DNA from: Synechococcus sp. BO 8801 | GTDB taxonomy: Bacteria; Cyanobacteriota; Cyanobacteriia; PCC-6307; Cyanobiaceae | NCBI RefSeq assembly: GCF_002252675.1 | Contig: NZ_NQKY01000006.1 | Location: 1-64,000, forward strand | Length of the DNA stretch: 64,000 nt | Reading direction: 5' to 3' | Shown: in pieces, positions 10,411 through 63,917 of the stretch | Position numbering within the stretch: position 1 is the first letter of the stretch | Layout: each line of letters opens with the position of its first letter | Notes under the pieces: model-generated | Seen by the model: only the letters and a program-made list of their open reading frames with translations | The model's database searches: none | What the model was told of the DNA's origin: nothing | Program-made: the position numbers and the translations under genes

Positions 10411-10484
10411 CGGGGCGTGGCGCAGCTTGGTAGCGCGGGTGCTTTGGGAGCACTAGGTCGCAGGTTCGAATCCTGTCGCCCCGA
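10411..10484 (+). tRNA. trnP: tRNA-Pro (UGG)
   Basis: The cloverleaf is complete: acceptor CGGGGCG/CGCCCCG, D stem GCGC/GCGC, anticodon stem GGTGC/GCACT with loop TTTGGGA (anticodon TGG), T arm GCAGG-TTCGAAT-CCTGT and discriminator A. CCA is not encoded. The 3' part from 10441 is duplicated at 63853, so this gene is the integration target and the element restored it on insertion. Confidence 0.96.
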
Positions 10485-24722: not shown

Positions 24723-24726
24723 GGCA

Positions 24727-27846: not shown

Positions 27847-27888
27847 GGGAATGGGTTGAGTGGCGGTAGAAAGCGCAGGCTTCGGGTG

Positions 27889-28467: not shown

Positions 28468-28585
28468 TCCGCTGCTGCCGCAGGAGGCAGGACAAGGACC
28501 CGCCGAGGATGCCGCAATGGGGATGAAAAACAGGTGAAACCGTCTGCGCTGCCTAGGATCGGCGGCAATCAGCGCCTTCAGGCCC

Positions 28586-29290: not shown

Positions 29291-29301
29291 GCACCTCCGC
29301 C

Positions 29302-39332: not shown

Positions 39333-39342
39333 GAGTAACCAG

Positions 39343-40047
39343 CTATATCGAAGCTGGAATACAGCGTGAAAGCCCCTGCTGCAAGCGGCCGGCAGACCAT
39401 AGAGAGTCAACAAGGTTACCCCAGGCCTCAGCCAGAGCTGGGTGCGCATCCCGATAGGCAGTTGCGATCTTTCTTAGATCTTTTCCTTTTCGCCTGACAA
39501 ACTTCGGTTGTTTCCCCTCCAAGGCCACAGCAGGATCCTTTAGGCATTCCACACATGCAGGAGGCAGTGGATTGGTGAGACAACTGCGAGATTCGGGCAA
39601 GTCAGGGAAGATGGCACGCAACAGCCAAGCTTCGGTTGCCATGCCAGGAACCCAGATCAGAACATTCTCAGGGAGATTCACCAGACCAAGCCAACCCATG
39701 ACTAAAGCCTCAGCGGCTAAAATATTATTCTCCGGCGGTGGACATAGTCCTGCAGCGTCATGCTCTTTGTCGAGCACGATATCAGCATCGACATGAATAA
39801 TTAGTAGATGAACGTCTGGCCTTAGTGCTCCAATAGCCTCAAGCCCTCCGGCGGCTTGCACAGATTTGCACCAACCGCGTACTCCTTTCCAGCCACCACC
39901 ATGGGGGCCTGCATCGCCACCATACAGAGATTCATCTGGCTGAATTCTACTGAGTCTGAATGAGGGTTGCTTGAGATGAGCAAACAGAACGGCCTCCAAG
40001 ACCCTTTGGTCTGTAATGCCTTCACACACCAACCGAATGTTATACAT
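39343..40047 (-). CDS. TOPRIM-like (DUF4276-type) partner of the ATPase
   Basis: A 234-residue protein. The N-terminus RLVCEGITDQRVLEAVLF carries the Glu of a TOPRIM-like fold, and later LLIIHVDADIVLDKEHD gives the DxD. GWKGVRGWCKSV and the basic C-terminal FVRRKGKDLRKI are also in line with DUF4276/OLD-type TOPRIM proteins. It starts within the last 8 bases of the ATPase gene. ATPase-TOPRIM pairs act in abortive infection (AbiL, PARIS, OLD-like). The nuclease role is inferred. Confidence 0.62.
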   Translation of the reverse strand: MYNIRLVCEGITDQRVLEAVLFAHLKQPSFRLSRIQPDESLYGGDAGPHGGGWKGVRGWCKSVQAAGGLEAIGALRPDVHLLIIHVDADIVLDKEHDAAGLCPPPENNILAAEALVMGWLGLVNLPENVLIWVPGMATEAWLLRAIFPDLPESRSCLTNPLPPACVECLKDPAVALEGKQPKFVRRKGKDLRKIATAYRDAHPALAEAWGNLVDSLWSAGRLQQGLSRCIPASI

Positions 40048-41227: not shown

Positions 41228-41348
41228 GGCTTGGGAGAGTGGCTGTAGGCCTGGCAGCGGAATCTATGTCGATGAAGGGTAGCCAAAGCCACCATGGCCG
41301 CCAGAGCTGGCGGCTGGGCTGATCGGGGCGTTGGGATGCGGTGGAGTG

Positions 41349-42590
41349 TCATCGCAGGCGGATTCGGCCGGTGAGGAGCTGTTGCTTCATGGCTTGCTTG
41401 AGAGCGCGTGTTTTATCGAGCCTGATGTTTAGTGTATTCAGCTCATCATCCAGTGATGATAGGCACTCTGAAATCGCCAGTTGCTCAGCCAATGTGGGCC
41501 ATTGAATGCTCAAGGAAAGCAGAGCCTGTTTGGAGATGTTCTTCATGCTTCCACTTGTTCCCGTAGCCAGCTCCTTGATGCACGTTCTGTTTTGATCAAA
41601 TGAAAGCGAATATGCAAGCCACCGAGAGGAGACGGCATTAGGGTTTCTGTAAGCCACCCTCCATAAGCGGTCTGGCAGGAACAAACCTGGGTAATCCGAT
41701 TCAGAGTATCCGCATTCGCCTACTAGCGCAGGCGTATTCATCCTACTGATAATCAGGTCTCCCTTCCGGATCGAAGTCTTGGCGCGCGAAAGATCAGCGG
41801 CTGTAATTTCCTTGCTTTCCGAGGCTATCACCTGGCCATTCGTTACCGCTGATGTCTTGAGAACGAAGCGGCCTGTGCCTGGGTGATCATTGCCTGGCTG
41901 AGACACAACACTAACGCCTGCTTCTAGATTACTGATCACGCTGCCAAGCCTCTTCACCACCCACTCCCCCTCGAACCCCGGCAGCCGCCGCTTGCCGGTG
42001 AGCAGCTCCTGCATGGCGGCCTGCTTGATGTTGCGCTTTTTGGCGATGAATCGCTCCAGCGCGGTTAGCATTGCATCCGCATCGCTCAACGCCGCTGCAA
42101 TAGAGCGCTGCTCTGTCACGCTCGCAGGAATATGAATCGGGCACTTCTGGAATGCGTTGTTAAGCAGGTGTGTCTGGCTAACACCGTCATCAAACCTGAG
42201 AAAGTATGGATTGCGATTAAGGACGTAAAACAAGTACTTTGGCCAATCGTTGTACGCAGTTAGTGCGCATACCCGTTGGTTGACTGCATAGGTGTCGTCC
42301 GCCTCCACAAAGTAGGCTCTCGCAAGAGCGCGGCCATTTGGAAGGTCGCTCATCACCATCAGGATGTCTTCTTTTTTAGCAGGGCTCAAGTTTTCTCTTG
42401 AATACTTGCGAACGCTGCCGTCGGTTGATATGAACTTGGAGTTTACGCAGACGAAGGCCCCTGTATCAGATATGAACTTCTCGTGTGCTTTGCCACTGCG
42501 GAAAAGCAAGACATCAGGCAAGAGTTTCACATCCCACTCCTCTGGGATTACGCCCACCTCTGTCTGTTTGTAGCCCGGCTTCAATTCCAT
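41349..42590 (-). CDS. hsdS: Type I R-M specificity subunit S
   Basis: From ATG 42590 it is 413 residues with two target-recognition domains, each followed by a helical spacer: PEEWDVKLLPDVLLFRSGKA...EQRSIAAALSDADAML...KRRLPGF and EGEWVVKRLGSVISNLEAG...EQLAISECLSSLDDELN...QLLTGRIRL. Thus both half-sites are present. It overlaps the end of hsdM by 10 bases. Base composition in the TRDs is lower in GC than in hsdM, as usual for exchanged domains. Confidence 0.9.
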   Translation of the reverse strand: MELKPGYKQTEVGVIPEEWDVKLLPDVLLFRSGKAHEKFISDTGAFVCVNSKFISTDGSVRKYSRENLSPAKKEDILMVMSDLPNGRALARAYFVEADDTYAVNQRVCALTAYNDWPKYLFYVLNRNPYFLRFDDGVSQTHLLNNAFQKCPIHIPASVTEQRSIAAALSDADAMLTALERFIAKKRNIKQAAMQELLTGKRRLPGFEGEWVVKRLGSVISNLEAGVSVVSQPGNDHPGTGRFVLKTSAVTNGQVIASESKEITAADLSRAKTSIRKGDLIISRMNTPALVGECGYSESDYPGLFLPDRLWRVAYRNPNAVSSRWLAYSLSFDQNRTCIKELATGTSGSMKNISKQALLSLSIQWPTLAEQLAISECLSSLDDELNTLNIRLDKTRALKQAMKQQLLTGRIRLR

Positions 42591-44989
42591 GCGAACCCCA
42601 TCCGCTGCAGATGCTGGGCCACCCGTGCTTCCAGTTCCTCCACTCGGTCGCTGATCACCGGTAGGGCCTCGCCGTAGCGCTCGCCCAGTTGCTTGAGGCG
42701 GCTGGTGAGGGCCTGGCTCACCCGTTCCACCTCGGAGGCCACTGCCTGCTCCAGGCTGACCAGCCACTTGCCCTCCACAACAAGCTCCCGGATCTCGGTC
42801 TTCGTGAGGCTGTCGTAGCGGCCGTAGGACTGGTCGTCGAGCTCGGCCTCGGCGGCCTTTAGGGCCCTCTTGGTGGAGGCTTCCTCTTCGCTCACCTCCA
42901 GCCATTCTTTCAGCACCGCCAGCTCCTCAACGGCCTCGGGATCCTTGCGGATCTCCTTGATGCGGGCATTCACGTTGGCCTTATTCACCTTCTCCAGCTC
43001 GCCGAAGGCACCTTCCTCGCCACCGTGTTCCTCCTCCAGCTCCGCCAGGCGGCTGCTGGCCTCCTCCAGCTGGGAAAGAAGCCCCTCAATCAGCTCCAGG
43101 TCATCAGCAAACAGGTGCCGCACCAGCAGCTCCTTGGGCACCAGGTCGCATGCCCAGCCCTTGTCCTTGCTATTGCCCTTCTTGTCAATTTCGATCACGC
43201 GGGTGGGCTCGGCCTTCCAGCCCTCGGCGCTGATCGCATATACATCGTCCTGCATCGTCTCGGCCCACTGGTCGAGCAGCAGCTGGTACACGGCGTAGGC
43301 ATCTATCAGCGGCTGGCCCAGGTAATGGGCCAGCAGGCCCTCGCTCAGCTCGCGGATCACCGCCTTGGGGTGGCAGCCCGGCTCTTGGGTCCGCAGCTGG
43401 GCCGCCGCCTGCTGCCGCCAGGCATGAAAGTGCTCGGCCATTCCCGCCAGAAAGTTGGTAAACTGGGGATGTGCCGTGATCGTGGCCTTCAGCTCCCCCG
43501 GCGCCACAGCCAGCTCCAGATACCCGGGCCGCAGGGGCCTAAACAGGGCCTCCCGCAGCTGCGGGCACACCTGCCAGTAAGCCTCCAGGGCGTCGATGTC
43601 GCGCTCGGGAATGCCGCCGCGCAGGTGGGCCTCGATGTCCTGCAGGTCTTCTGCTTCTGAACTGTCGATGTAGCGGGGCAGGTTGAGATTGTAGTCGTGA
43701 CCAGCGATCTCCTCATTGCGCACGAAGCGCGAATACCCGGGGATCTCAAGCTGGCGGGTGAACACATCCACGATCTTGTGGATGTCGCGCTCGCGCAGGC
43801 GGTTCTTGGGCCCGTCCTTGATGAACCCCTTGCTGGCATCCACCAAAAATATCCCCTCGCGGCTGCCGGCATCGCGCTTGTCGATCACCACGATGCAGGC
43901 GGGAATGCCCGTGCCGTAGAAGAGGTTTGCCGGCAGGCCGATGATCCCCTTGATCAGGCCCCGCTGGATGAGGTTTTTGCGGATTTCGGCTTCGGCGTTG
44001 CCGCGGAACAGCACACCATGGGGAAGGATGCAACTGCCACGGCCGGTGCTCTTGAGCGTACGCACGATGTGCAGCAGGTAGGCATAGTCGCCCTGCTTAG
44101 CCGGTGGGATGCCGAAGCCCTCAAAGCGCCCGTAGCGATCCTTAGCCGCATCCAGGCCTGTGCTCCAGCGCTTATCGGAGAACGGCGGATTGGCCACCAC
44201 AAAGTCGAACTGCTTGAGATGATCACCCTCGGTGAGCTTCGGGTCGGCGATCGTGTTTCCTTGCCAGATCGTGGCCGTGGGGTTGCCGTGCAGGATCATG
44301 TTCATCCGCGCCAGGCCGCTGGTGGCCGCGTCCTTCTCCTGGCCGTAGAGCGTCACCGGCGTGCGGGCCTGGGCCGCCACCTTCAGGAGCAATGACCCCG
44401 ATCCACAGGTGGGGTCGCACACCGTGGTGTCGGCGGAGGTGGCCTCCTTGTCGATCTCCAGCACCTGGGCCTTGATGCGGCTCACCTCCGCTGGTGTGTA
44501 GAACTGCCCCTTGCTCTTGCCGCTTTCGCTGGCGAAGTGGCGCATCAGGTATTCGTAGGCATCTCCAAGGATGTCGTCGTCGTCAGCCCGGTTGCGCGAG
44601 AAGTTGAGCTCCTGCTTCTCGAAGATGGCGATCAGGTTGGTGAGCCGCTCCACCAGCTCCTTGCCGCTTCCGAGCTTGGCTTGGTCGTTAAAATCGGGAA
44701 AGTCGCTCTGGCTGAGCTGTTGGTTGGCCGCCACCAGCGGGGCGATGATCTCCTTGTTGATGCGGTCGCCGATCTCCACCTTGCCCTTCAGGGCCACCAT
44801 GGCCTCAAAGCCGGAGCCCTCGGGGATCACCAGCGGCGCATAGGGCTGGCCGGCGTACTTGTCGCTGATGTACTTGAGGAATAGCAACACCAGCACATAG
44901 TCCTTGTACTGGCTGGCGTCCATGCCGCCTCGCAGCTCATCGCAGCTGGCCCAGAGACTCGAATACAGCTCGGATTTACGGATCGCCAT
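42581..44989 (-). CDS. hsdM: Type I R-M methyltransferase subunit M
   Basis: An 802-residue N6-adenine methyltransferase. The N-terminal helical domain begins KSELYSSLWASCDELRGGMDASQYKDYVL, motif I is TVCDPTCGSGSLLLKVA, and motif IV is FVVANPPFSDKRW. The C-terminal extension of ~250 residues with a long coiled coil (LEEASSRLAELEEEHGGE) is longer than in the common 500-residue HsdM. It methylates the host sites and holds HsdS. It is the first gene of the leftward defence operon. Confidence 0.92.
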   Translation of the reverse strand: MAIRKSELYSSLWASCDELRGGMDASQYKDYVLVLLFLKYISDKYAGQPYAPLVIPEGSGFEAMVALKGKVEIGDRINKEIIAPLVAANQQLSQSDFPDFNDQAKLGSGKELVERLTNLIAIFEKQELNFSRNRADDDDILGDAYEYLMRHFASESGKSKGQFYTPAEVSRIKAQVLEIDKEATSADTTVCDPTCGSGSLLLKVAAQARTPVTLYGQEKDAATSGLARMNMILHGNPTATIWQGNTIADPKLTEGDHLKQFDFVVANPPFSDKRWSTGLDAAKDRYGRFEGFGIPPAKQGDYAYLLHIVRTLKSTGRGSCILPHGVLFRGNAEAEIRKNLIQRGLIKGIIGLPANLFYGTGIPACIVVIDKRDAGSREGIFLVDASKGFIKDGPKNRLRERDIHKIVDVFTRQLEIPGYSRFVRNEEIAGHDYNLNLPRYIDSSEAEDLQDIEAHLRGGIPERDIDALEAYWQVCPQLREALFRPLRPGYLELAVAPGELKATITAHPQFTNFLAGMAEHFHAWRQQAAAQLRTQEPGCHPKAVIRELSEGLLAHYLGQPLIDAYAVYQLLLDQWAETMQDDVYAISAEGWKAEPTRVIEIDKKGNSKDKGWACDLVPKELLVRHLFADDLELIEGLLSQLEEASSRLAELEEEHGGEEGAFGELEKVNKANVNARIKEIRKDPEAVEELAVLKEWLEVSEEEASTKRALKAAEAELDDQSYGRYDSLTKTEIRELVVEGKWLVSLEQAVASEVERVSQALTSRLKQLGERYGEALPVISDRVEELEARVAQHLQRMGFAWN

Positions 44990-51967: not shown

Positions 51968-52984
51968 TCAGCTGCGGGTGGCCGCCAGCGCCAGCTCATG
52001 GGCCTGGGTCAGGGTGGCGGCGGCTTTACCGAACCACAGCCCCTCCAGCCGCTGGCGGGCCGCCTCGATCGGGTCCCTCGATCTCCCGGCCTCATGGCTC
52101 AGATGCTCGGTTACCGACTGGTAGGCGGACCACATCGTGCCCTGCACGCCGGGGATGTCGCTGCCGATGGCCTGGCCTTCGAACTTGGCGGAAAGGCCCT
52201 CCCAAGCGGGAAGATCCTCCAGACGCCGGGGCCGGCTTGTCGTTGCATCGCCTCGGCGGTCGTTGATAGCCCCCCGCAGCTGATCGGCGAAGAGGGTTTC
52301 GACGTACTGGCGGAACTGGGTGGCGGTGCAGGGGGCGGCGGCCATGGCGCGGAGTTCGGCCAGGCCGCCGTTGAACTGCTGGCGTTGCAGATCGATCAAC
52401 TCGGGGAGCCGGCTGATCAAGGCGTTGGCATTGCGGGTGTGGCGGATGCGGCAGCCCTGCTGGCGCCGGCTTCTCGCTGATGAAAGCCCCAGGGCAGCAG
52501 ACAAAGTGTTTTGGCACACCACCCGGATGGGTGAGAAGAAAACGGAGAAAGCGATCGTCCCGTCATGGCTGGTGCAGCCAACCAGGTACTGATTCACCGG
52601 ATCACCCGGCAGTACCTCTCCTTCCGACTGCCGCACTCGGGCCGTGAAGGTCACCTTCTTGCCACCGGCCAGGACGCAGACGGCATCCATCACCGCGTCG
52701 CTGTGGAGTGCCTCGGCGACACGGATCAGTTGCTCATTCTGGACGATCTCGTAGGTGCTGTTCATCACCGAGAGGGTGGAGCCTGTATCTGTGCGGCTGA
52801 TCGCTTGATAACCCTCGATGGGCTGCATGTCGGCGTCGTACACGGGGCGGCCTGCGAGATGGAAGTCGGCGCCACCGAGGCGGAACGCCTCACGGGCCGG
52901 GAGGGTGCCGTCGAGAACCAGGCCGAGTCGGTGCCAGGCAGGGCGGCTGTTGAGGAAGACGCCAGAGCTGAATTGATGGGACAT
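51968..52984 (-). CDS. DUF932 phage/plasmid-like protein
   Basis: From ATG 52984 it is 338 residues. Family blocks: RPAWHRLGLVLDGTLPAREA near the start, YQAISRTDTGSTLSVMNSTYEIVQN, CTSHDGTIAFSVFFSPIRVVCQNTL, and a C-terminal GTMWSAYQSVTEHL. DUF932 (TIGR03299-type) proteins are common in plasmids, phages and satellites and have no firmly known function. It is the last gene of the leftward module and lies after a terminator hairpin (53028-53060). No damage seen. Confidence 0.82.
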   Translation of the reverse strand: MSHQFSSGVFLNSRPAWHRLGLVLDGTLPAREAFRLGGADFHLAGRPVYDADMQPIEGYQAISRTDTGSTLSVMNSTYEIVQNEQLIRVAEALHSDAVMDAVCVLAGGKKVTFTARVRQSEGEVLPGDPVNQYLVGCTSHDGTIAFSVFFSPIRVVCQNTLSAALGLSSARSRRQQGCRIRHTRNANALISRLPELIDLQRQQFNGGLAELRAMAAAPCTATQFRQYVETLFADQLRGAINDRRGDATTSRPRRLEDLPAWEGLSAKFEGQAIGSDIPGVQGTMWSAYQSVTEHLSHEAGRSRDPIEAARQRLEGLWFGKAAATLTQAHELALAATRS

Positions 52985-53027
52985 GGGTAAATCGCTGCGG
53001 CCGGTAGGCCGCCGCCAGAGAGGACAG

Positions 53028-53060
53028 AAAAAAGCCGGCCTCACAGGGAGAGACCGGCAA
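53028..53060 (-). terminator. Terminator hairpin after the SSB-like gene
   Basis: On the minus strand a GCCGG/CCGGC stem (53056-53034) is followed by T6 (53033-53028). It lies between the SSB-like and DUF932 genes. Confidence 0.6.
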
Positions 53061-53102: not shown

Positions 53103-53405
53103 TCAGCTTTCGAGTTGCTTGGCCGGCAGGTGGATCCGGTCGGCCACCAGGCGTACGCCGCAGTGGTTGCCGCACAGCCGCCCCGAGGCCGCCAGTCGCA
53201 TCCCGGGGGTGGCGTTGTCGCTGAGCTCCTGGGCTTGCTTCCCCCAGACCTCGATCAGAAGGGAGAAGCCTCCGGCGGATTCCTCGTCCCAGCGGGGGGA
53301 GACTCCAGAGACCATCAGGAGCACCTCAGCGCGGATGGCGCCGCAATCAAAGAAGGTCAGCTGGACAGGAAGGGGGGCAGTCCCTGTAAGCACGGTGACG
53401 TTCAT
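53103..53405 (-). CDS. SSB-like OB-fold protein
   Basis: From ATG 53405 it is 100 residues: MNVTVLTGTAPLPVQLTFFD and SLLIEVWGKQAQELSDN, GMRLAASGRLCGNHCGVRLV, ADRIHLPA, matching the strand order of short single-stranded-DNA-binding proteins, but without the acidic C-terminal tail. It overlaps the upstream gene by ATGA. Such short SSBs belong to plasmid and phage replication modules, in line with the Rep gene nearby. Confidence 0.65.
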   Translation of the reverse strand: MNVTVLTGTAPLPVQLTFFDCGAIRAEVLLMVSGVSPRWDEESAGGFSLLIEVWGKQAQELSDNATPGMRLAASGRLCGNHCGVRLVADRIHLPAKQLES

Positions 53406-53752
53406 GGCTTGTGGGCCCCGTTGGGGCAACAGGCGGGGGAATCGAGGAAAGAGAAGACATCGTTCAAGTCCTGCTCGCTGGGCGCCGGCACGCTCACCGG
53501 ATCGAGGGGGCCTGCTGGGCGGTTCATGTCGGCCACAGGGAGGGCATGCCCTCCGCTGGCGTGCTCGGGGATGGGGTCGATCAAGAGCTGCAGGCCGTAG
53601 AGGTTGCCGTTTTGATGCCAGGCGATCTGATTGCCCATGGCACGCAGGAACGTGACGGCGGAGAAGATCTCGGTGTCCTGGTGGAGGACGACGAACGGGG
53701 GGAGGAACACACCATCGGGCATGCGGATGGTGATCTCACTGCGGAATTTCAT
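53402..53752 (-). CDS. Hypothetical protein (116 aa)
   Basis: Reads MKFRSEITIRMPDGVFLPPF, VVLHQDTEIFSAVTFLRAMG, NLYGLQLLIDPIPEHASGG. No family recognised. It is translationally coupled to the SSB-like gene. A terminator-type hairpin with T6 ends immediately before its start codon, so its transcription may depend on read-through. Confidence 0.5.
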   Translation of the reverse strand: MKFRSEITIRMPDGVFLPPFVVLHQDTEIFSAVTFLRAMGNQIAWHQNGNLYGLQLLIDPIPEHASGGHALPVADMNRPAGPLDPVSVPAPSEQDLNDVFSFLDSPACCPNGAHKP

Positions 53753-53821: not shown

Positions 53822-54049
53822 TCAGGGGCCGTTCTCGGGGAAGCAGAAGCGGAGCGCTTCGGCCGCCTCCTCGAAGGAAGGGGAGACGTCGAGCCATGGG
53901 GATCGGATGCGGGCAAAGGCGCCAGCTGGGAAGTAGCGAGAGAGGCTGGAGTAGGAAGCGCCTCGGAGGCGATCGGCTGGCAGGACCAGGCCGGCGGTGG
54001 CGTTGCCGCTGCGGGCGCACCGGAATCGGACCTTGCAGTAGCCGCTCAT
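53822..54049 (-). CDS. Small hypothetical protein (75 aa)
   Basis: Reads SGYCKVRFRCARSGNATAGL, VLPADRLRGASYSSLSRYFP, SFEEAAEALRFCFPENG. It overlaps the upstream gene by ATGA. No family known to me; the coupling and length suggest a satellite or plasmid accessory protein. Confidence 0.5.
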   Translation of the reverse strand: MSGYCKVRFRCARSGNATAGLVLPADRLRGASYSSLSRYFPAGAFARIRSPWLDVSPSFEEAAEALRFCFPENGP

Positions 54050-54438
54050 GGCAGCGCCTGCGGCGCCGGGGACCCAACGGGGAGAGCCACAGCCTGCACA
54101 GCAGGCGGAGCCTGCAGGAGGAAGCGATAGACAGTGCAGTCGGATGCCTTGCAGTAACCGGCAGCGTCGTGATACCGGGTGAAGCCGTACTCTTCATCGG
54201 CATCGACGCAGGTGGCGGATTTGGTGGAGAAGGTCTCCGCCCACCAGGCATCGGCAGCAGCAATCTCGTCGTCTTCTAGACCTGAGGGGTCATCGTTAAT
54301 GAAATAGCACGCCCAATGTGTGGGGAGGAGGTGGCTGACCAGGGAGGGATGGCGTGCATCCCGTTCGCTTCGTTTGAGGAAAACGGGCTCGGGGGGGCAC
54401 AGGGGTGGATCTGGCAGGTAGAGGCTGGAAGTAGCCAT
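54046..54438 (-). CDS. Hypothetical plasmid/phage-type protein
   Basis: From ATG 54438 it is 130 residues. The central block HWACYFINDDPSGLEDDEIA, AADAWWAETFSTKSATCVDA, DEEYGFTRYHDAAGYCKASD resembles small plasmid/phage proteins of the DUF6926 type (recollection, uncertain). It is preceded at 26 bp by a terminator hairpin and the tRNA-like element. Confidence 0.5.
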   Translation of the reverse strand: MATSSLYLPDPPLCPPEPVFLKRSERDARHPSLVSHLLPTHWACYFINDDPSGLEDDEIAAADAWWAETFSTKSATCVDADEEYGFTRYHDAAGYCKASDCTVYRFLLQAPPAVQAVALPVGSPAPQALP

Positions 54439-54463
54439 AAAAGTCACAGCGTCAGAGGGACAC

Positions 54464-54489
54464 AAAAAAGCCCCGCACAGAGGCGGGGC
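54464..54489 (-). terminator. Terminator behind the tRNA-like element
   Basis: On the minus strand GCCCCGC-CTCTGT-GCGGGGC (54489-54470) is followed by T6 (54469-54464). It ends transcription of the tRNA-like element and lies in front of the 130-aa gene. Confidence 0.75.
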
Positions 54490-54493
54490 AAAC

Positions 54494-54620
54494 CAATCCA
54501 GGCGGATTTGAACCGCCATACAGCAAGGCGCCCCCTGGTAGGGACACAGGGGGGCGCTCGCTGCGCCTTGCCTGCTACGCAGAGACCTCCAAGAGGTCTG
54601 GAATGCATGCAGGTGGATTG
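54494..54620 (-). ncRNA. tRNA-like RNA with a giant variable region
   Basis: Read on the minus strand: a 7-bp acceptor-like stem CAATCCA/TGGATTG (54620-54614 with 54500-54494), a canonical T arm GGCGG-TTCAAAT-CCGCC (54517-54501) directly attached to it, and an anticodon-like arm AGACC-TCTTGGA-GGTCT (54599-54583). Between the last two lies a ~65-nt insert that folds into a small hairpin (CTGC-GTA-GCAG) and a long stem (GCAAGGCGC/GCGCCTTGC). No D arm or U33 is seen, so it is not a normal tRNA. A terminator follows at once, which supports its being a transcribed RNA. Confidence 0.4.
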
Positions 54621-55717: not shown

Positions 55718-56137
55718 CTAGTCGATATCGACCGCCGAGGGCATGACCTCAATCAGTGCCAGGCGCTGCTCCAGGACCTCCATCTGCTCCGACATTTCTG
55801 CCCAGCGGGCTGCCGACTCACGCCGCTCAACCACATGGTTCATGGTGTTGATGATCAGCTTGGCTGCGCCTAAGGCGATCGACTCGGACTGAGAACTCAG
55901 CAGCTCTCTGGCTTTTCGAACCGCATCGCCGTAGCCCTGCTGCAACTCCTTGGTTGCCTCCGACTCCAGTTGCTGCAGGGCTTCATCGACCGCGCGGACA
56001 TAGTCAGGGTTGCGTCCCCATGAGAGAAGCGTTGTGTAGCCAATGTTCAGCTCCTGCGCGATCTGGCGCAGCTGCATCCCCTCCGCCGTCATCAATACGG
56101 CCTTCCTTTGACGGGGTTTCAGGGTTGCTGAGGTCAT
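55718..56137 (-). CDS. HTH protein, phBC6A51/terminase-small-subunit-like
   Basis: A 139-residue protein. The N-terminus RQRKAVLMTAEGMQLRQIAQELNIGYTTLLSWGRNPDYVRAV is a helix-turn-helix of the type found in phage small terminases and phBC6A51-like proteins, followed by long helices (EATKELQQGYGDAVRKAREL, VLEQRLALIEVM). In a satellite-like element it may recognise packaging or origin DNA. It is divergent from the rep gene, with ~60 bp between them containing a TGGAAT...ATTCCA dyad. Confidence 0.6.
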   Translation of the reverse strand: MTSATLKPRQRKAVLMTAEGMQLRQIAQELNIGYTTLLSWGRNPDYVRAVDEALQQLESEATKELQQGYGDAVRKARELLSSQSESIALGAAKLIINTMNHVVERRESAARWAEMSEQMEVLEQRLALIEVMPSAVDID

Positions 56138-56199: not shown

Positions 56200-56484
56200 T
56201 TGGACTGCTATCTCAATCGAGCTGCTGCGGGTCACCGCTTCAGCCTCAGCCCGCTGGTCGTCTTGGCTGATGAGTGGGTAGGAGTGCTGGATGCTGAAGA
56301 CATGCCATGGCTCCAGACGCTCACCAATCAAGCGGCGAACCAGAATCTGATGGCAAAATCTACCCCCGTCCTGGCCTGGCGCAAACGTTCTTTGCCGCTC
56401 GCGATCGATCTTTCATTGTGCTCGGGGGAATGTGTTGTGGATCTCAGGCGATCAGAGCGAGTAATGGCTGGGGTTTCACTTTGA
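56200..56484 (+). pseudogene. Disrupted N-terminal part of the rep gene
   Basis: This frame carries KRSLPLAIDLSLCSGECVV, which resembles the region after Walker A of RecA-fold Rep/RadA-like ATPases (GKS-L-LAIDLSL), then continues as unrelated residues and stops at 56484. The following domain continues in another frame (WLGFHFDRMGIAPED), which is open from 56465. Either a frameshift or a small deletion separates the P-loop region from the rest. Confidence 0.4.
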
Positions 56485-56488
56485 TCGG

Positions 56489-57676
56489 ATGGGGATCGCA
56501 CCTGAAGACGGAGACCCGTGGTTTCGCCTCGTCAGCGGCTGGAGGATCGATCGCCCTGGTGAGTTCAACAAGATCGTGAAGGAGGTCCAGCCTTCTCTGA
56601 TCGTGATCGACTCTCTGGGATCGGTTTCCGACCTCGGGGATGCGAAGGAAAACGAGGGGGCTTATGCAGCGCCGCTCTACGACATCTCTCGGAGGAATAG
56701 GGCGCTGGATCTGGAGGATGGCTTCCCGGCTGCAGCGATCATCTGGATCCACCACAAGAAGAAGGACGGGTCGGACTTCAGGGGGACGGACAGGCTGCTC
56801 AATGCGGTGGAGGAGACCTGGGGGCTCAGAGAGCTCACCGAGGAGGAGGAGGCTGAGCACGGGGTCAACAGCCGGATCCTGACGATTGGGAAGAGCCGGT
56901 TTGATCGCTCTCGGGACAGGCTGCTGGTGACCCGGGACCACAACCTGAACTACGAGATCAAGGATCTGACGGCGACGCTCCACAGGATGGGTGTGAACCG
57001 GAATGGGGACCTCGACCCGGCGGGGGTGGTCCTGGAGGTCCTGAGAGCGGCCGAAGGACCGCTGAGGGAAGAGGAGGTCCGGGAGGAGGTCAAGGCGTAC
57101 CTCCAGGCCGAGGGGCACGACCGGATCCCCAAGAGGTCAGCGGTCAGGAAGTACCTGCAGGGGTGGGTGGTCGACGGGATGGTCCGGGTTGAGAAGGTGA
57201 AGGGCTCGGGGCAAAGGGGTCAGCCGCCCAAGGCTTACAGCCTCGCGTGTGCGGGGGGAGAGGGAAACCGTGTCTTTATTGATTTGGACAAACGAGACTC
57301 ATGGCCACCACAGGTTTCTGCATTTCTGACACGGGGCGGTGAGAATCGTGTCAGTAATCGAAAATCCGAGGAGCGTGTCAGTATTCCGCCTCTCTCCCCC
57401 GAGGACGCTGGGAATACTGACACCAAGGCCCAGGAGCCTAATACTGACACGGGGTGTGTCAGTATTCAAAACCCCTGCGCCGCAACGGTTCCCGAGGACG
57501 CTGGGAATACTGACACGGACACCTCTGCACCCCACGCGAGGCGGGATGGCGGGCCGGTTCCGGAGGGGCAGACCTGGGGCGGCCCCGAGGGCGAGGAGAC
57601 CTTCATCCCGGCTCCCCCCGAGAACGTGGGACTCACGGATGAGACGGATGAGGACCCGTGGCCCAGGTTCGACTGA
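56489..57676 (+). CDS. RecA-fold replication protein with C-terminal winged helix (RepA-like), 5' end damaged
   Basis: 395 residues from ATG 56489. The N-terminal part is the second half of an AAA/RecA-fold ATPase: Walker B-like VQPSLIVIDSLGSVSD, FPAAAIIWIHHKKKDGSDFR, GTDRLLNAVEETWGL. Residues ~165-240 are a winged helix (VVLEVLRAAEGPLREEEVRE, RIPKRSAVRKYLQGWVVDGM). From residue ~250 the reading frame runs through iteron unit 1, giving a low-complexity acidic tail (SPEDAGNTDTKAQEP). The layout of a Rep whose own gene contains its origin sites recalls lambda O. The P-loop lies in a separate, shifted frame, so activity is doubtful. Confidence 0.65.
   Translation: MGIAPEDGDPWFRLVSGWRIDRPGEFNKIVKEVQPSLIVIDSLGSVSDLGDAKENEGAYAAPLYDISRRNRALDLEDGFPAAAIIWIHHKKKDGSDFRGTDRLLNAVEETWGLRELTEEEEAEHGVNSRILTIGKSRFDRSRDRLLVTRDHNLNYEIKDLTATLHRMGVNRNGDLDPAGVVLEVLRAAEGPLREEEVREEVKAYLQAEGHDRIPKRSAVRKYLQGWVVDGMVRVEKVKGSGQRGQPPKAYSLACAGGEGNRVFIDLDKRDSWPPQVSAFLTRGGENRVSNRKSEERVSIPPLSPEDAGNTDTKAQEPNTDTGCVSIQNPCAATVPEDAGNTDTDTSAPHARRDGGPVPEGQTWGGPEGEETFIPAPPENVGLTDETDEDPWPRFD
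57238..57676 (+). repeat. Iteron unit 1 (GTGTCAGTATT), inside rep
   Basis: Conserved framework (CTTTATTGATTTGGACA, GAGACTCATGGCCACCACAG, CCCGAGGACG) plus seven sites: 57322 -, 57348 +, 57375 +, 57413 -, 57440 -, 57456 +, 57506 -. Five are perfect; 57348 has one and 57322 two mismatches. Sites 57440 and 57456 form an 11-5-11 palindrome. Confidence 0.85.
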
Positions 57677-57719
57677 GTCGGCGTGATCAGTTCATCTGCA
57701 GAGAGGAGACTCTGACTCA

Positions 57720-58275
57720 GAACGCCTTGCGGAAGTTGGTGAAGGCATACCTGCATGCCGAGGGGCACGAAGGGATCCCAAAGAGGTCATTCTTCAGGAA
57801 GTGCCTCCACAGGTAGGTGGTAGATGGGATGGGCTGGTTCGAGACGGTGAAGGTCTCGGGGCAAAGGGGTCAGCCTCCCAACGTTGTCAGCCTCGCGTGT
57901 GCGGGGGGAGTGGGGACTAACGCATTTATTGATTTGGACAACCGAGACTCATGGCCACCACAGATTTCTGATTTCTTTCGCGCTGGCGTGAGAATCGCGC
58001 ACTTATCCGACCGCGCACTTATTCCGGAGGAGGGAGAAGGAGGCCCAGGCACCACTCCCCCCGAGGACGACCCAATAAGTGCGCGGCGGAGGCCGAGGGG
58101 AATAAGTGCGCGGACCACGCACTTATTCCGAACCTAGTTGCGGCAACGGATCCCGAGGACGATTCCAATACGTGCGCGGACACCTCTGCACCCCGCACGC
58201 GAGGCGATGGAGGCCCGGTCGAGGAGGGGCAGACCTGGGGTGGCCCCGAGGGCGAGGAGATCTGGGTCGGGTGGA
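57720..58275 (+). repeat. Iteron unit 2 (GCGCACTTATT)
   Basis: Starts with a recognisable copy of the rep winged helix (KAYLHAEGHEGIPKRSFFRK) broken by a TAG near 57814. Sites: weak 57971 -, 57997 +, 58013 +, 58074 -, 58101 -, 58117 +, 58167 -. Three are perfect. The open frame ends at 58137. Confidence 0.82.
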
Positions 58276-58379
58276 CGGAACAAGCTTGGACCGGTGCTCC
58301 CCCTGAAAACGATGGTTGGGGTGGGAAGGAAGACACCGCACATCAGCCATCCAGAAAGCCCGGGAAGGCGAGCTAATGG

Positions 58380-58930
58380 CTGGGATGGCGCCATTTGCCT
58401 CACGGATGCACCCGGAGGACCTGAGGGCCTTAGGACGGGCGCTGACGCTGCAAGGGGGTGTGCTCCTCGACCGGTCTCGTCGGGATTTGAAGTGCTCGGG
58501 GAAGAGCCGGGGAGGCCCCCTCTTTTCAGCTCAATGACCTCGCGTGTGCGGGGGGAGAGGAAAACAGTGTCTTTATTGAATTGGACAGACGAGACTCATG
58601 GCCACCACAGGTCGCAGCATTTTTGACACGGCCTGGTGAGAATCGTGTCAAAACCTCCATTTCCGCCGAGCGTGTCAAAACCCCAGAGGTGGACGAACTG
58701 GTGTCCCCCGAGAACCCTGAAGGTTTTGACACACAGGAAGGCAAGGGGGGTTTTGACACGCACTGCGTCAAAACCTCGGACTCAGGTGCTGCAACGGATC
58801 CCGAGGGCCAAGAGGGTTTTGACACGGACACCTCCGCACCCCACGCGAGGGAGGATGGCGGGCCGGTCGAGGAGGGGCAGACCTGGGGTGGCCCCGAGGG
58901 CTTGGAGATGTTCACGGTCCAGGTCGACGG
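58380..58930 (+). repeat. Iteron unit 3 (GTGTCAAAACC)
   Basis: Sites: 58619 -, 58645 +, 58672 +, 58722 -, 58749 -, 58765 +, 58815 -. Five are perfect. The frame from 58581 stays open to 59012, encoding DRRDSWPPQVAAFLTRPGEN and an acidic low-complexity tail like that of Rep. The winged-helix part upstream is decayed. Confidence 0.85.
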
Positions 58931-58989
58931 GATCCAGCAGGGGCCTGTGCTGCCTCCCGAGAGCGATGCTCTGAGCGATACAAACGGCT

Positions 58990-59475
58990 CCGCACCTCAA
59001 GACTGTCGCTGACGCTTCAGGGTGGGTGCCTTGGTCTGGGGTTGATGGGGTGGTACGCACCTCGGGGAGAAGGGGGGTGGTCGCTCCACCAAACCCAACG
59101 GCCTCGCGTGTCCGGGGGGAGGGGGAAACCCCACAGAAATTGATTTGGACAATCGAGACTCATTGCCCCCACTGGATTCTCGATTTATGCGCGACGGAGT
59201 GAGAATCGCGCAGAAATCCCTTTCGGAGGCAACCGCGCAGAAATCCCCAACAGTGCTCCCCGAGGACGGTGGAGATTTCTGCGCGTGCGAGGGAGAGGGA
59301 GATTTCTGCACACCCCGCGCAGAAATCTCTAGCCCAGGTGCCGCAATGGATCCCGAGGACGCTGAGGATTTCTGCGCGGACCCTCCTTCACCCCACGCGA
59401 GGCAGGATGGAGGCCCGGTCGAGGAGGGGGCGACCTGGGGTGGCCCCGAGGGCTTGGAGACGTTCGTGGTCTAGG
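58990..59475 (+). repeat. Iteron unit 4 (GCGCAGAAATC)
   Basis: Sites: 59182 -, 59208 +, 59235 +, 59274 -, 59301 -, 59317 +, 59367 -. Five are perfect, two have one mismatch. The shared framework is more diverged here (CCACAGAAATTGATTTGGAC). Confidence 0.85.
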
Positions 59476-59609
59476 TCGAAGGAATGATGCAGGGACCAGC
59501 CCTGCCCCCCGAGAACGATTGTCGGGGCATGACGGAAGACTCCGCACCTCAGGCATCCATACGGCTCAGGAAGGCGGCCAGGCAGCAGGGAGGCTGTCTT
59601 AGGCATCAA

Positions 59610-60095
59610 GGGTGGTTCTGGAGGCCCTGACGGCATCAGAGCGGCCCCTGACGCTTCAGGAGATGTGCGTCACAGTTTGGGGGCGACGGGTTGCTACGTG
59701 CTCGGGGGGAGAGGGCGGGCGGGTGGTCCCTCCACTCCATCAAGCTCACTGGCCTCGCGTGTGTGGGGGGAGAGGGGAACCGTGTCTTTATTGATTTGGA
59801 CAACCGAGACTCATGGCCACCACAGCTTTCGAGGTTTTGCCACAGTGGGGTGAGAATCGCGGCAAAACCCCCTATGACCCCGAGCGTGGCAAAACCTCCC
59901 CCGAGGACTTCGTAGGTATTGCCACGCTTGCAGAGGTAGGAGGTTTTGCCACGGAGAATGGCAAAACCTCCGTTCCAGTCCCCGCAACGGATCCCGAGGA
60001 CGAAAACGGTTGTGCCACGGACCGTCTCGCACCCCGCACACGCGAGCCGGGCGGCCTGATCGAGGAGAGGGTGACCTGGGGTTAGGTCCAAGGAG
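59610..60095 (+). repeat. Iteron unit 5 (GTGGCAAAACC)
   Basis: Sites: 59833 -, 59859 +, 59886 +, 59915 -, 59942 -, 59958 +, 60008 -. Three are perfect, four have one mismatch. A remnant of the winged helix is readable (VLEALTASERPLTLQEM). The frame is shifted between the framework and the sites. Confidence 0.83.
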
Positions 60096-60219
60096 TCAAG
60101 GAAGTGTCACAGCCTCCAACTGAAAACGAACCGAGCGAGGCGGATGACCCAGCGCAGCAGGCATCTACACGGTCCAGGAATGCGGCCAGGTAGCTGGGAA
60201 GGCAGCTAGGCACAACGGT

Positions 60220-60712
60220 TGGTCATGGAAGCCCTGAGGGGCCTCAGAGCGGGCGCTGAAGCTTCAAGAGATGTGCGTCATGGTTTGGGGCCGAAGGGTT
60301 GCTACGTGCTCGGGGGGAGAGAGAGGGCGGGTGGTCCCTCCACTCCATCAAGCTCACTGGCCTCGCGTGGGTGGGGGGAGAGGGGAACCGTGTCTTTATT
60401 GATTTGGACAACCGAGACTCATTGCCACCACAGGTTTCTCGATTTGTGACGCGGCCTGGTGAGAATCGCGTCACAAACCCAATTTCCCCCGAGCGCGTCA
60501 CAAATGAGCGAGTGCCCCCCGAGGACGCCCTGATTTGTGACGCAGCACCTGAGCCAGGCATTTGTGACGCACCTCGCGTCACAAATCAGAAGTCAGTCGT
60601 AGCAATGGATCCCGAGGACGAGATCGTTTGTGACACGGACCCTCTCGCACCCCGCACGCGAGTGGATGGCGGCCAGGTCGAGGAGGGGGTGACCTGCGGT
60701 GGCCCCGAGGAC
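60220..60712 (+). repeat. Iteron unit 6 (GCGTCACAAAT)
   Basis: Sites: 60442 -, 60468 +, 60495 +, 60533 -, 60560 -, 60576 +, 60626 -. Five are perfect. The upstream part is nearly the same as that of unit 5 (GCTACGTGCTCGGGGGGAGA), so these two are recent relatives apart from the sites. Confidence 0.85.
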
Positions 60713-60930
60713 GCCTTGATTTGTGCCACGACGGGCGACCCAGGCATTTGTGCCGCACTGCGTGGCACAAATCAGAATCCTGGCCAGGAAAGGGATCCCG
60801 AGGACGGAGACATTTCTGCCGCGCACACCTCTGCACCCCACGCGAGGGAGGCTGGCGGGCCGGTTGAGGAGGGGCAGACATGGGGTGGCCCAGAGGGCGT
60901 GGAGACGTTCATGGTCAAGGTCGACGTGAT
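60705..60930 (+). repeat. Iteron half-unit 7 (GTGGCACAAAT)
   Basis: Only the 3' half is present and joined in phase to unit 6: sites 60719 -, 60746 -, 60762 +, 60812 -, with the same 27-16-50 spacing as sites 4-7 of other units. The frame from 60299 runs through units 6 and 7 to 60961. Confidence 0.78.
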
Positions 60931-60961
60931 GCTGCAGGTACTGGTGCCCCCCCCCACCTGA

Positions 60962-61672
60962 TCAACCGATCCGGTTCTGCAGGAACAGCCTGGTCCCTGT
61001 CGTATCAGTCATCCGCCAGGGGACGTCGATGAACGCCTCCGCCGCGAACCCCACGCGGCGTTCTCCGCTGGCTGTGGGATGGCCACCGGTAAGGGAGCGC
61101 ACTCCAGCGGGTGCCCCTACGGCGATGGCGCGAGCGACGGTCCACAGCACCTGACGGCCCTGGTGGTGACGCTCGAAGCGATAGCCGTAAGCCTCATGCC
61201 CGCTGCGCCAGGACGTCACCCCCTGACCCAGGAGGGCTGCCAGATCGGTGGTGGTGAGGACCAGGGCGTTATCGGCAGCCTCAGCCAGCCCCCGAGCCCG
61301 CAGTAGGGGATCCGAGCCTGGGCCTGACGCCGCCTCCCTGATCGCCCCCACCAGGGCCGCCAGGTCGCTGCCAGGGGGCTTCACGATCGCCATGGAGTCT
61401 GCTGGTGTCGCTGCAGTCGCACTGCCATCAACGGGCCCCGGTTTCAGACCAGGGAAGGTGCCCATGGGCTGTCCCGACTGGAGATGGTCGTGGAGCCTCT
61501 CCCCGAGCTCGATGAACGCACCTGGCCAAGTGGTGAGGGTGGAGGAGACGCGGATCAGATCGACCCCGAGAGCGCGGGCGCGGGCCTTGAGGCCGTTGCG
61601 GCTGATCCCCCATCGCTGCTCCAAGTCCCTGATAGAGACATCGGCGGGCGCCACGTCAGAGGGTGCTGTCAT
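60962..61672 (-). CDS. HTH-containing hypothetical protein (236 aa)
   Basis: The N-terminus VSIRDLEQRWGISRNGLKAR, ARALGVDLIRVSSTLTTWPG looks like a helix-turn-helix/MerR-like DNA-binding segment; the middle is Pro/Ala-rich and the C-terminal part (RFERHHQGRQVLWTVARAIA) basic. I cannot name a family. It faces the iteron array tail to tail and could be a DNA-binding partner for it. A 10-bp dyad lies just upstream of its start. Confidence 0.55.
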   Translation of the reverse strand: MTAPSDVAPADVSIRDLEQRWGISRNGLKARARALGVDLIRVSSTLTTWPGAFIELGERLHDHLQSGQPMGTFPGLKPGPVDGSATAATPADSMAIVKPPGSDLAALVGAIREAASGPGSDPLLRARGLAEAADNALVLTTTDLAALLGQGVTSWRSGHEAYGYRFERHHQGRQVLWTVARAIAVGAPAGVRSLTGGHPTASGERRVGFAAEAFIDVPWRMTDTTGTRLFLQNRIG

Positions 61673-62444: not shown

Positions 62445-63770
62445 TCAACACTTTTGCGCATCCTGTTCGGTTTTCTCTCCCCCGAACGCAGCCTCGAATG
62501 CCGCTGCCGCTGCTCCGTGGCTGACGAACCGTGCGTAGCGGCGCAAGTGGGTCTCCAGCGAGTGACCCATCGCCTCAGCGATGTACTTCGGCGGCACGTT
62601 GTTCCGGTGACAGGTGGCGGAGTAGTGGTGGCGCAGTGAGTAGGGAACCAGCTCCTCTCCCAGGTGATCCGCTTCCTCGCATAGCTGTTGCCAGATCACC
62701 TGGCGCCTAAGGAACCTTCCCATCCGATCGCCAGCGAGGCACGGATCGACGACCTGGGGTAGCCGCTCACCGCCTCGAAGCCTCTCCTCCAATCGCCATA
62801 CCATGGGGGTTCCGTCAAGATCGAGCACCGGCGCAGCGAGCAACTGCCTGGGCCTGGTGGTCCCGCCCCCTGACTTCTTGCGGTAGTCGCACCAGAGTTG
62901 ATCACCCTTAAAACGGAGATGGAACAACTCGGTTGGCCTCAGCCCGTAGACAGCGCAGAGCTGTACCGCAAATGCCCACCGGTTGGCTTCATCGCTGCCG
63001 ATTGACTGCAAAGCCTGCGCCAGCCGTATGACCTGGCCGTCGGAAAGAGCAAACTGTTCGCGAGTGGGGGCCCGACGTCCCACGACCGTAGCGAGGTTGT
63101 GCGGGGGCGCCCAGGTCCTTGCGCTGACACCCTGCCGCTCGACCGCATAGCGGAGAAAGGCAGCACCGTTCTGGGTTGCGATCTGGCGACTACGGCTACC
63201 CAGATCCCATTGACGGACGGCCGCTTCTAACAGGTTGGGACTATTGGCTGGTGCTCCCTGACCCTGCATCAGATCTACCATGCGCCAAACAACGGGAGCG
63301 TATTTCATTCGCCAGGTCGTTTCACTGACCCCAGCACCGTGCTCCCTCTTGTGCTTCTCAAACGCGGCGGCTATAGCCGGCCAGTTGTAAGACGCTTCGC
63401 TGCTAGCCCCGTTGGCGAGGGTCGCTGCAGATCGAAGCTCCTCCCCCTGGGCCATGTAATTCGCGATCACCCGTAGTCGCTGGATCAGATCGTGCTCGTT
63501 CTCGTGGGACCAGGCGTAGGGAAGTGGGACCGAAACGCTTTTGATCCGCCCGTCCTCTTTGACGAATCGCTGTTGCAAACGTGCCTGGCCGGTTTTGTCG
63601 GGACCGAGGTTGCATCGAGCGGGCAGGTGCTTCCGCAAATGGGCCCGAACACGGGTCTCCCACGTCGCTTCAGTAGGTGCATGGTTGGCCACCGGTTGGT
63701 CAGCGGTTGGACAGGGGTTGGACGGAACGGAGCAGAAGCGAGCACTCCTGAGCAGTCGCGTCCCGAGCAA
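62445..63770 (-). CDS. int: Tyrosine recombinase (island integrase)
   Basis: A 441-residue phage-type integrase. The catalytic domain has VYGLRPTELFHLRF (first Arg), YRKKSGGGTT (Lys), VPYSLRHHYSATCHR (second Arg, with Tyr in place of the first His of HxxR), MGHSLETHLRRYARF (His and catalytic Tyr). The N-terminal arm and core-binding domains precede. It lies 82 bp inside attR and reads inward, the normal place for a tRNA-targeting integrase. The first ~25 codons overlap the GGTTGGACAG repeats, so the true start could be later. Confidence 0.88.
   Translation of the reverse strand: MLGTRLLRSARFCSVPSNPCPTADQPVANHAPTEATWETRVRAHLRKHLPARCNLGPDKTGQARLQQRFVKEDGRIKSVSVPLPYAWSHENEHDLIQRLRVIANYMAQGEELRSAATLANGASSEASYNWPAIAAAFEKHKREHGAGVSETTWRMKYAPVVWRMVDLMQGQGAPANSPNLLEAAVRQWDLGSRSRQIATQNGAAFLRYAVERQGVSARTWAPPHNLATVVGRRAPTREQFALSDGQVIRLAQALQSIGSDEANRWAFAVQLCAVYGLRPTELFHLRFKGDQLWCDYRKKSGGGTTRPRQLLAAPVLDLDGTPMVWRLEERLRGGERLPQVVDPCLAGDRMGRFLRRQVIWQQLCEEADHLGEELVPYSLRHHYSATCHRNNVPPKYIAEAMGHSLETHLRRYARFVSHGAAAAAFEAAFGGEKTEQDAQKC
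63694..63725 (+). promoter_or_regulatory. Three direct GGTTGGACAG-type repeats (possible integrase arm sites, right)
   Basis: GGTTGGTCAG (63694), GGTTGGACAG (63705) and GGTTGGACGG (63716), 11 bp apart. The same decamer occurs twice near attL. Confidence 0.35.
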
Positions 63771-63852: not shown

Positions 63853-63917
63853 GCTTTGGGAGCACTAGGTCGCAGGTTCGAATCCTGTCGCCCCGATTGA
63901 CTTTTCAGGGATTGGCC
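63853..63917 (+). repeat. attR, right copy of the attachment direct repeat
   Basis: Contains the 3' part of tRNA-Pro from the anticodon stem on, without the 5' half, so it is not a functional tRNA gene. Beyond 63917 the sequence to 64000 is chromosomal flank with no visible gene. Confidence 0.9.

Follow-up and report, generated by a model that had tools for sequence, protein, structure and literature searches.

An array of 11-bp sites, which starts inside the 3' end of a truncated replication initiator gene (rep), occupies positions 57242-60900 of a 64,000-nucleotide stretch of DNA from Synechococcus sp. BO 8801 (contig NZ_NQKY01000006.1; this whole stretch is hereafter the window), in an element integrated at a tRNA-Pro gene. 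Judged by their make-up and place, the units of this array are iteron origins of a family of Rep proteins with PrimPol, helicase and winged-helix parts, which carries its origin in the 3' end of its own rep gene, and the array as a whole is, on the evidence of its sequence, a tandem series of origins with mutually different iterons in an element whose rep has lost the primase part. We tentatively propose, with a probability of roughly 0.4, that this rep-defective element may be copied in trans by the Rep proteins of its relatives through such foreign origins. Below, G000 denotes the window genome, with the window on its 165-kb contig C45, and G000-b a second element there with an intact rep; u1 to u7 are the units of the window, and u0 and A to E those of a second array, in genome G022.

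The array consists of six full units and one half unit, all of one architecture and each with an internally coherent word of its own. In a full unit the sites follow the strand order - + + - - + -, and in units 1 and 3-6 their starts lie 26, 27, (29-50), 27, 16 and 50 bp apart. An earlier, sequence-only reading of the window had described these units, sites and strand order, all of which were located as claimed; the conserved spacing that it reported holds for units 1 and 3-6 but not for unit 2, in which the first minus site, at its expected place (57971), agrees with the word of the unit in just 6 of 11 letters, the two plus sites that follow start 16 rather than 27 bp from each other, and the variable gap measures 61. 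The theme that it had offered for all words, GYGNCANAANN, fits units 1, 3, 5, 6 and 7 roughly and fails for units 2 and 4. Unit 7 has only the four right-hand sites; sites 5 and 6, with 5 bp between them, make an inverted repeat in each of the seven units. The most AT-rich 25-mer falls at an overlapping place in 6/6 full units (in units 2-6 from 57916, 58558, 59132, 59778 and 60386) and is overlapped by a weak eighth site, which is nearest to the word of its own unit in 5 of 12 units, with a mean of 3.8 mismatches to that word and 6.0 to the words of other units. Unit 1 lies within the 3' coding end of the truncated rep, and the remaining units are tandem copies of that end.

The claim that each unit has its own word was borne out by permutation. 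The mean mismatch is 1.05 within and 4.97 between units for the 46 sites of the seven window units, and 1.38 within and 5.33 between for the 88 sites of 13 units from the window, G022 and G000-b; in both cases none of 2000 permutations reached such a separation. A scan for the right-hand architecture (sites 4-7) gave seven matches in the window, all inside the array, none in 30 shuffles of the window in two-base blocks and none in 1.07 Mb, both strands, of 38 viral loci. The scan is strict: it recovers the G000-b unit and four of the five units of G022, the exception being unit C, and it also overlooks the origin of G013, another genome with a full-length rep.

Comparison of sister units indicates that the words change as a whole. 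Between u4 and E all seven sites differ at motif position 10 and at none of the other positions among 77, the framework differing at 61 of 275; between u1 and D seven of the ten site differences fall on position 2, one in each of the seven sites (framework 63/269). Position 4 is switched in 7/7 sites between u3 and u5, with seven other differences, and in 4/4 sites between u6 and u7, with five. The pairs u1/C and C/D also switch position 4 in 7/7 sites, but they involve the degenerate unit C and show 13 and 17 differences besides; only the four former pairs of 78 combine a single switched column with no more than ten further differences. Chance alone would place seven differences among 77 in a single column with a probability of about 5e-9. 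The simplest reading of these switches is that the sites follow a changing reader. Gene conversion between the sites of a unit is disfavoured because the switch left sites 1 and 5 as the two odd sites of both u4 and E. The sequence-only reading had suggested recognition by trans-acting DNA-binding domains of diverging specificity, in the manner of iterons, and this gains sequence support from the whole-column switches and from the rep-linked iterons of relatives described below. Words scattered outside the units, or random decay of one site set, had been named there as signs to the contrary; on the 165-kb contig no window word recurs exactly outside the unit to which it belongs, and the concerted switches of sister units rule out the decay of one ancestral set. 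In addition, seven of the 12 array words combine one of GTGTCA, GCGTCA and GTGGCA with one of GTATT, AAACC and CAAAT (seven of nine combinations); the scheme does not cover u2, u4, A, B and E.

The truncated rep is 68% identical (551 bits) to the C-terminal part of an intact Rep of 1016 amino acids encoded at G000:C45:121253-124303, in which PF09250 (PrimPol) and PF13481 (AAA_25) domains are recognized. The truncated gene is missing its N-terminal portion up to and including the Walker A region, the alignment breaking at 56396/56417 against 10543/12990 in locus L028. The intact gene belongs to G000-b and carries one unit, of word GTGAAACAACC, in its 3' coding end; this word is absent from the array. 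Matches to Rep in G000 comprise only the truncated rep, the relics in the array and the intact G000-b Rep, leaving one truncated rep for seven units. The rep of G022 has lost its primase part and retains the helicase, with break points unlike those of the window, which points to different deletions, and both truncated Reps retain the DNA-binding domain. G000-b and G013 have a full-length rep and a single unit. Private codon changes, nonsynonymous to synonymous, number 13:12 in the truncated window rep, 13:23 in G000-b and 20:35 in G022, small counts that hint at relaxed selection on the window gene. Winged-helix relics in the arrays contain stops or are shortened, and the stretch 57703-58264 aligns with the G000-b rep tail at 65%. 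Where the sequence-only reading had envisaged many origins kept in one chromosome, we find not independent chromosomal origins but tandem copies of a rep 3' end within one tRNA-Pro element whose rep is truncated.

The second array, in the one-contig genome G022 of the same genus, comprises at least five units at C1:169.7-174.2 kb, with the words GTGGATTTAAT, TCACAGAAAAT, GTGGCAGTATT, GCGTCAGTATT and GCGCAGAAACC. An insertion between its first two units was read by eye as an insertion sequence, and in locus L026 (10121-11711) the insertion inside the array after unit A has frames that by eye are transposase-like. The array lies at the corresponding chromosomal place (left flank 92.7% over 7.95 kb, right flank 85-94% in pieces), and the two arrays have no word in common: the window words are absent from 80 kb around the G022 array, and vice versa. 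Two spacer pairs are close, s34/sCD (92% of 192 bp) and s45/sBC (88% of 288 bp), in reversed order between the arrays, and the cores beside them are only 71-76% alike. Over all full-unit pairs the cores show 69-82% identity, a flattering figure as the aligner leaves gaps out, the closest between the arrays being u4/E (82%), with u1/D at 79%. A third sister pair, u6/B, was rejected: it reaches 80% with the gap-tolerant aligner and 54/104 ungapped over sites 4-7, against 79 for u4/E and 78 for u1/D. Sister cores may occupy different slots, u1 being in the rep tail of the window and D internal to the G022 array, and the weak eighth site of u3, u5 and u6 has the unit-1 form, which suggests crossovers between the AT-rich patch and site 1. 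On account of the spacers matched with unlike cores, the sisters in different slots and the form of the eighth site, array cores seem to be mobile between arms that are conserved. Mean pairwise identity across the 11 full array units is 0.81 in the left block, which includes the AT-rich patch, against 0.52 in the sites and 0.57 in the inter-site DNA. In nine of the 12 array units the sites stay at least as close to the word of the unit as those of the intact origin do to theirs (at most 6/77 deviations, u7 3/44; intact origin 6/77), and the unit directly behind the G022 rep, u0, is decayed, with an identity to the others of 0.54 in the left block and 0.41 in the inter-site DNA. Scans with the framework motif TGANNKGGACARNNNAGACTCANKGCC found arrays in 2 of 42 genomes of the genus and one copy in a third genome, no array in IMG/VR, and one record among genome contigs, Cyanobium sp. 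CACIAM 14. A codon-phase test of whether the cores had diverged inside rep or inside the array was uninformative, since even two intact reps have no third-position excess in that tail.

The association of rep with iterons recurs among relatives. Of 41 IMG/VR loci encoding relatives of the binding domain, many of them near-copies and four too short to judge, 35 of the 37 scorable ones carry iterons of both strands in a single cluster at the rep 3' end, two lack one by this measure and none has several; 25 of the 41 carry the same TGTCCAAA repeat, and in the contig of L098/L209, one of the two loci lacking a cluster, repeats appear when one mismatch is allowed. Rep relatives occur in 28 of 388 genomes of the class (E 1e-10). 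Among 34 cyanobacterial loci with such relatives, which include repeated loci of one gene as well as G000 and G022, 21 have a two-strand cluster downstream of the gene and 13 do not, more than one cluster being scored only in the window locus; this measure misses the degenerate G000-b unit, and some of the clusters, in which GATCGC words occur, may be repeats of an unrelated kind. Dense two-strand repeats also lie near many distant Rep-like ATPases of cyanobacteria (L146-L171), mostly just downstream and with up to 17 copies of an 8-mer, and perhaps represent a wide origin type. The intact Rep had no match in the phage collection and partial matches, at 23-34% identity, in 10 records of the plasmid collection, and the Rep query found no relative among the genome contigs. 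The contigs of L065 and L085 look like phages, with a PolA-like polymerase, a sigma factor and, in L085, an integrase, as read by inspection of frames and not by a family scan.

The binding domain of Rep is predicted to consist of helices at 60-70, 77-90 and 99-112 and strands at 115-119 and 131-135 (mean pLDDT 69, pTM 0.49), an order of elements that in the model corresponds to a winged helix. Compared with the PDB it gave no match at E <= 0.001; the best, at 1.2e-3, was Fur, followed by PadR, LmrR and Orc1, mostly winged-helix regulators and all weak. Two viral Reps show how specificity may be exchanged. L085:6659-9544 and L087:6750-9626 have the last helix in common, and of the 17 sixty-column windows that precede the wing 15 reach 95% identity or more (the other two 83 and 88%); identity then falls to 55-70% over seven windows spanning wing and iterons and returns to 90%, and the iteron switches from TGTCCAAAAC to TGTCCGTAAA (TGTCC-AAAAC to TGTCC-GTAAA). 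This is a natural swap of wing plus iteron, an exchange of origin specificity. In L061 and L062, which differ in both helix and wing, the iterons are GTAACAAACC and GACACAAACC. The two comparisons, which are two cases only, suggest that helix and wing read different half-sites, a code to which the seven combinable array words would conform. A viral relative (L194:6433-6760) has an iteron ending GCAAAACC, mostly TGAGCAAAACC, with an AAAACC half common to units 3 and 5, and the nearest to a cognate is a Rep element of G014 (L034:3061-3170) with four copies of an iteron one mismatch from that of u3.

The features of the window are collected in Table 1. An identical 44-mer stands at 10441, 63853 and C45:127387; of two tandem islands at one tRNA-Pro (G000:C45:10411-127430), that of the window extends from the tRNA (10411) to 63853, and the other, which holds the intact rep, continues to C45:127387. 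In G022 the intact tRNA (C1:177689-177762) is at the opposite, integrase end of the island. Seven frames are open in both array elements, encoding the DUF932, SSB-like, 116-aa, DUF6926, terminase-like and HTH-like (helix-turn-helix) proteins and the integrase; six are close relatives that differ mainly at third codon positions (DUF932: 21, 9 and 124 by codon position), and the integrases are only 35% alike (138 of 394). Protein family scans covered selected island proteins only. The 236-aa HTH-like protein has no Pfam or PHROG match and is 85-88% identical at the amino acid level in four full-length relatives. Its gene stands without an array in three congeners (L125:2775-3485, L126:13895-14605 and L127:12850-13463), with the tRNA-Pro attachment core nearby in two of them, the L127 match being in pieces only. 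As a marker of further arrays this gene was rejected, being present in G024, G012 and G025 with no adjacent array (the G024 contig ends 2.8 kb away), and a viral scan for it was empty. The island cargo also includes a type I restriction system (HsdR, HsdS and HsdM, 34330-44989) enclosing a GmrSD_N protein and an AAA ATPase like PDC-M31A, and metal and efflux genes at 15787-30717 (E1-E2 ATPase, VKOR, Nramp, an AcrB-type pump and a histidine kinase).

Table 1. Positions of the array, the truncated rep and associated features in the window.
Feature	Position	Strand	Remarks
tRNA-Pro (TGG), intact	10411..10484	+	ARAGORN; 3' 44 bp are the attachment core
DUF932 protein of element module	51968..53044	-	PF06067 E 2e-38; open frame, mostly third-position changes in relatives
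SSB-like protein (weak)	53103..53429	-	PF00436 E 0.025, below cutoff
116-aa protein of module	53402..53752	-	frame open in three relatives
DUF6926 protein	54046..54519	-	PF21977 E 8e-10
Small-terminase-like / HTH protein	55718..56137	-	phrog_7344, phrog_2538 (terminase small subunit); Pfam Sigma70_r4_2; HTH_Tnp_1_2 below cutoff
Truncated rep	56489..57676	+	helicase C-terminal part and winged-helix DNA-binding domain; PrimPol missing, as is the Walker A region; unit 1 in its 3' end
Origin unit 1	57242..57587	+	sites GTGTCAGTATT at 57322-,57348+,57375+,57413-,57440-,57456+,57506-
AT-rich patch, unit 1	57271..57295	+	candidate unwinding element; 28-36% GC across six full units, window 63% GC
Spacer 1-2	57588..57890	+	decayed winged-helix relic of rep from ~57703
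Origin unit 2	57891..58250	+	sites GCGCACTTATT at 57997+,58013+,58074-,58101-,58117+,58167-; degenerate first minus site 57971
Spacer 2-3	58251..58538	+	best G022 spacer match 75% over 212 bp
Origin unit 3	58539..58902	+	sites GTGTCAAAACC at 58619-,58645+,58672+,58722-,58749-,58765+,58815-
Spacer 3-4	58903..59101	+	92% identical over 192 bp to one G022-array spacer
Origin unit 4	59102..59453	+	sites GCGCAGAAATC at 59182-,59208+,59235+,59274-,59301-,59317+,59367-; sister of G022 unit E
Spacer 4-5	59454..59752	+	88% identical over 288 bp to one G022 spacer
Origin unit 5	59753..60090	+	sites GTGGCAAAACC at 59833-,59859+,59886+,59915-,59942-,59958+,60008-
Spacer 5-6	60091..60360	+	85% over 211 bp against one G022 spacer
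Origin unit 6	60361..60703	+	sites GCGTCACAAAT at 60442-,60468+,60495+,60533-,60560-,60576+,60626-
Half unit 7	60704..60900	+	sites GTGGCACAAAT at 60719-,60746-,60762+,60812-; TRF: 186-bp repeat with unit 6
HTH-like 236-aa protein	60962..61672	-	adjoins rep/origin in three elements (window, G000-b, G022); HTH read from sequence by eye
Tyrosine recombinase (integrase)	62445..63770	-	PF00589, phrog_1
Attachment repeat, 3' part of tRNA-Pro	63853..63896	+	identical 44-mer

In the mechanism that we propose, the winged helix of Rep would read the iteron, and each unit would be the cognate origin of a different Rep variant from related phages or satellites, its core having been brought in by recombination at the conserved blocks on either side. 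The Rep of an incoming relative would then fire the matching unit in trans and so copy the element, being diverted meanwhile from its own origin, and such firing would be the reason why a rep-defective element retains its units. In favour of this reading are the rep-linked iteron clusters of relatives, the viral swap of wing plus iteron, the whole-column switches, the AT-rich patch kept in all six full window units, the different losses of PrimPol in two array elements whose other seven frames are open, and the close spacers beside unlike cores. The cognate RepA/origin pairs of PLE satellites, the IncQ satellite plasmids and the displacement of an FIB replicon by iterons, which are discussed below, also led us to it. 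The two array elements have a truncated rep and the two single-origin elements a full one, a pattern that fits the loss of rep once the origins are served in trans and is too small to prove it. The kept left block together with the clean sites leans towards origins over bare decoys and scars. Several observations weigh against the proposal. For none of the array units was a Rep of the same word encountered; neither half unit 7 nor the irregular unit 2 makes a complete origin; and u2, A and C contain degenerate sites (8, 9 and 14 deviations of 77). Only 2/5 window spacers have a G022 partner at 88% or above, s56 reaching 85% (sBC), s23 75% and s12 about 71-79% over short stretches. A recent import of clean cores can give the same picture, both rep losses could be recent and unconnected with the array, and the sample is two arrays from one genus and two single-origin elements. 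As an extension, which we regard as somewhat doubtful, the element might be a parasite of parasites, with a changing ring of captured origins renewed from each newly met phage or satellite, copied by the incomers while draining them, and forming a sequence memory of past replicons.

The array could instead be a passive scar, in which incoming relatives recombined repeatedly with the resident rep tail and left behind origin ends of no present use. Such a history would yield units copied from the rep 3' end, a degraded winged-helix remnant in the spacer behind unit 1, cores reshuffled among spacers, the degenerate sites of u2, A and C, and a rep truncated in both array elements. We nevertheless consider it unlikely: nine of the 12 units are as clean as the intact origin, whereas u0 has decayed, and besides the concerted difference u4 and E show 0/70 site differences, against 22% in the framework. 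The argument from this pair and from the clean units is not decisive, because the cores may be recent imports. The units might also serve as decoys that only bind or handcuff the Rep of competitors, a natural counterpart of a curing cassette that need not fire. An iteron block alone displaces a cognate FIB replicon in trans (PMC11983097); half unit 7 would suffice for binding, the word of the cohabiting intact element is absent from the array, both truncated Reps retain the DNA-binding domain, and a type I restriction cluster lies in the same island. A single chromosomal copy of six or seven sites would probably be a weak sink, and mere binding needs no AT-rich left block, which is nevertheless the best-kept part of the units; we therefore hold this explanation to be decidedly unlikely.

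We give little credence to a cassette store, in which the array cores would be donors that allow rep to swap its origin (and wing) and so to change its specificity. The sister relation of u1, the rep-tail core, to the internal unit D and the exchange of wing plus iterons among viral Reps are what such a store would produce, yet rep is truncated in both genomes, and the winged-helix relics of the arrays contain stops or are shortened, so that a donor brings no matching binding domain. The inverted repeat of sites 5 and 6 could point to partition, regulatory or structural (hairpin) sites rather than origins. This we regard as very improbable, given the position of such repeats at the rep 3' end of nearly all scorable viral relatives, the joint switching of all sites, not just the arm pairs, in four unit pairs, and an Rfam search of 56400-61000 that found nothing up to E 0.1. 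Integron attC arrays and CRISPR were considered and provisionally set aside.

The array may offer a natural example, written in sequence, of how initiator specificity diverges, one motif position changing in all seven sites as the oddities of single sites persist. It also provides Rep/iteron pairs that look orthogonal, together with what may be a bipartite code, of helix and wing against two half-sites. If the units fire or bind in trans, they would represent a new route by which mobile elements exploit or exclude each other, and such arrays would record the replicons met by a lineage.

Among known systems, the window element has in common with integrative phage satellites (PICI, PLE, tycheposon-like) a tyrosine integrase, a tRNA attachment repeat and a replication module, here truncated, and its units have in common with iteron origins several short repeats beside or inside an initiator gene with an adjoining AT-rich region. 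The origin of phage lambda lies inside gene O, and the rep/ori regions of SaPIs have element-specific iterons inside or beside the initiator gene; these are single origins. Single-origin members of the Rep family (the IMG/VR loci, G000-b and G013) likewise have two-strand iterons in the rep 3' coding end, but one cluster each where scored, against at least five in the array elements. The nearest parallel found is the modular exchange of Rep and origin in phage satellites. In the PLE satellites of Vibrio cholerae, according to the excerpts of PMC8263062 and PMC7145576, the RepA DNA-binding domain and the origin vary jointly as a module, and an origin construct lacking repA replicates during ICP1 infection with RepA supplied in trans, in cognate pairs only. 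By the same excerpts PLE1 has one origin, three iterons of about 30 bp and a RepA_N initiator, whereas the window element has a PrimPol-helicase-winged-helix Rep, 11-bp sites and several origins of different word. IncQ satellite plasmids, with their replication genes deleted, rely on the full plasmid for their copying and lower its copy number (PMC6925257, in part); in contrast to the window element they arise from one plasmid, in laboratory E. coli populations and a bee-gut symbiont, and those parts of PMC6925257 do not mention an array of different origins. Several incompatibility determinants are combined in one molecule in multi-replicon F plasmids and pCURE cassettes, and iterons alone can displace a replicon, but F-type replicons bring their own rep genes (excerpts of PMC11983097), whereas the window array has one truncated rep for seven units and thus lacks the rep gene for each origin that marks a multi-replicon plasmid. 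Literature searches of open-licence PMC papers found no case of an array of several origins or of a multi-origin element; the new part is the presence of several origins of different specificity in one array.

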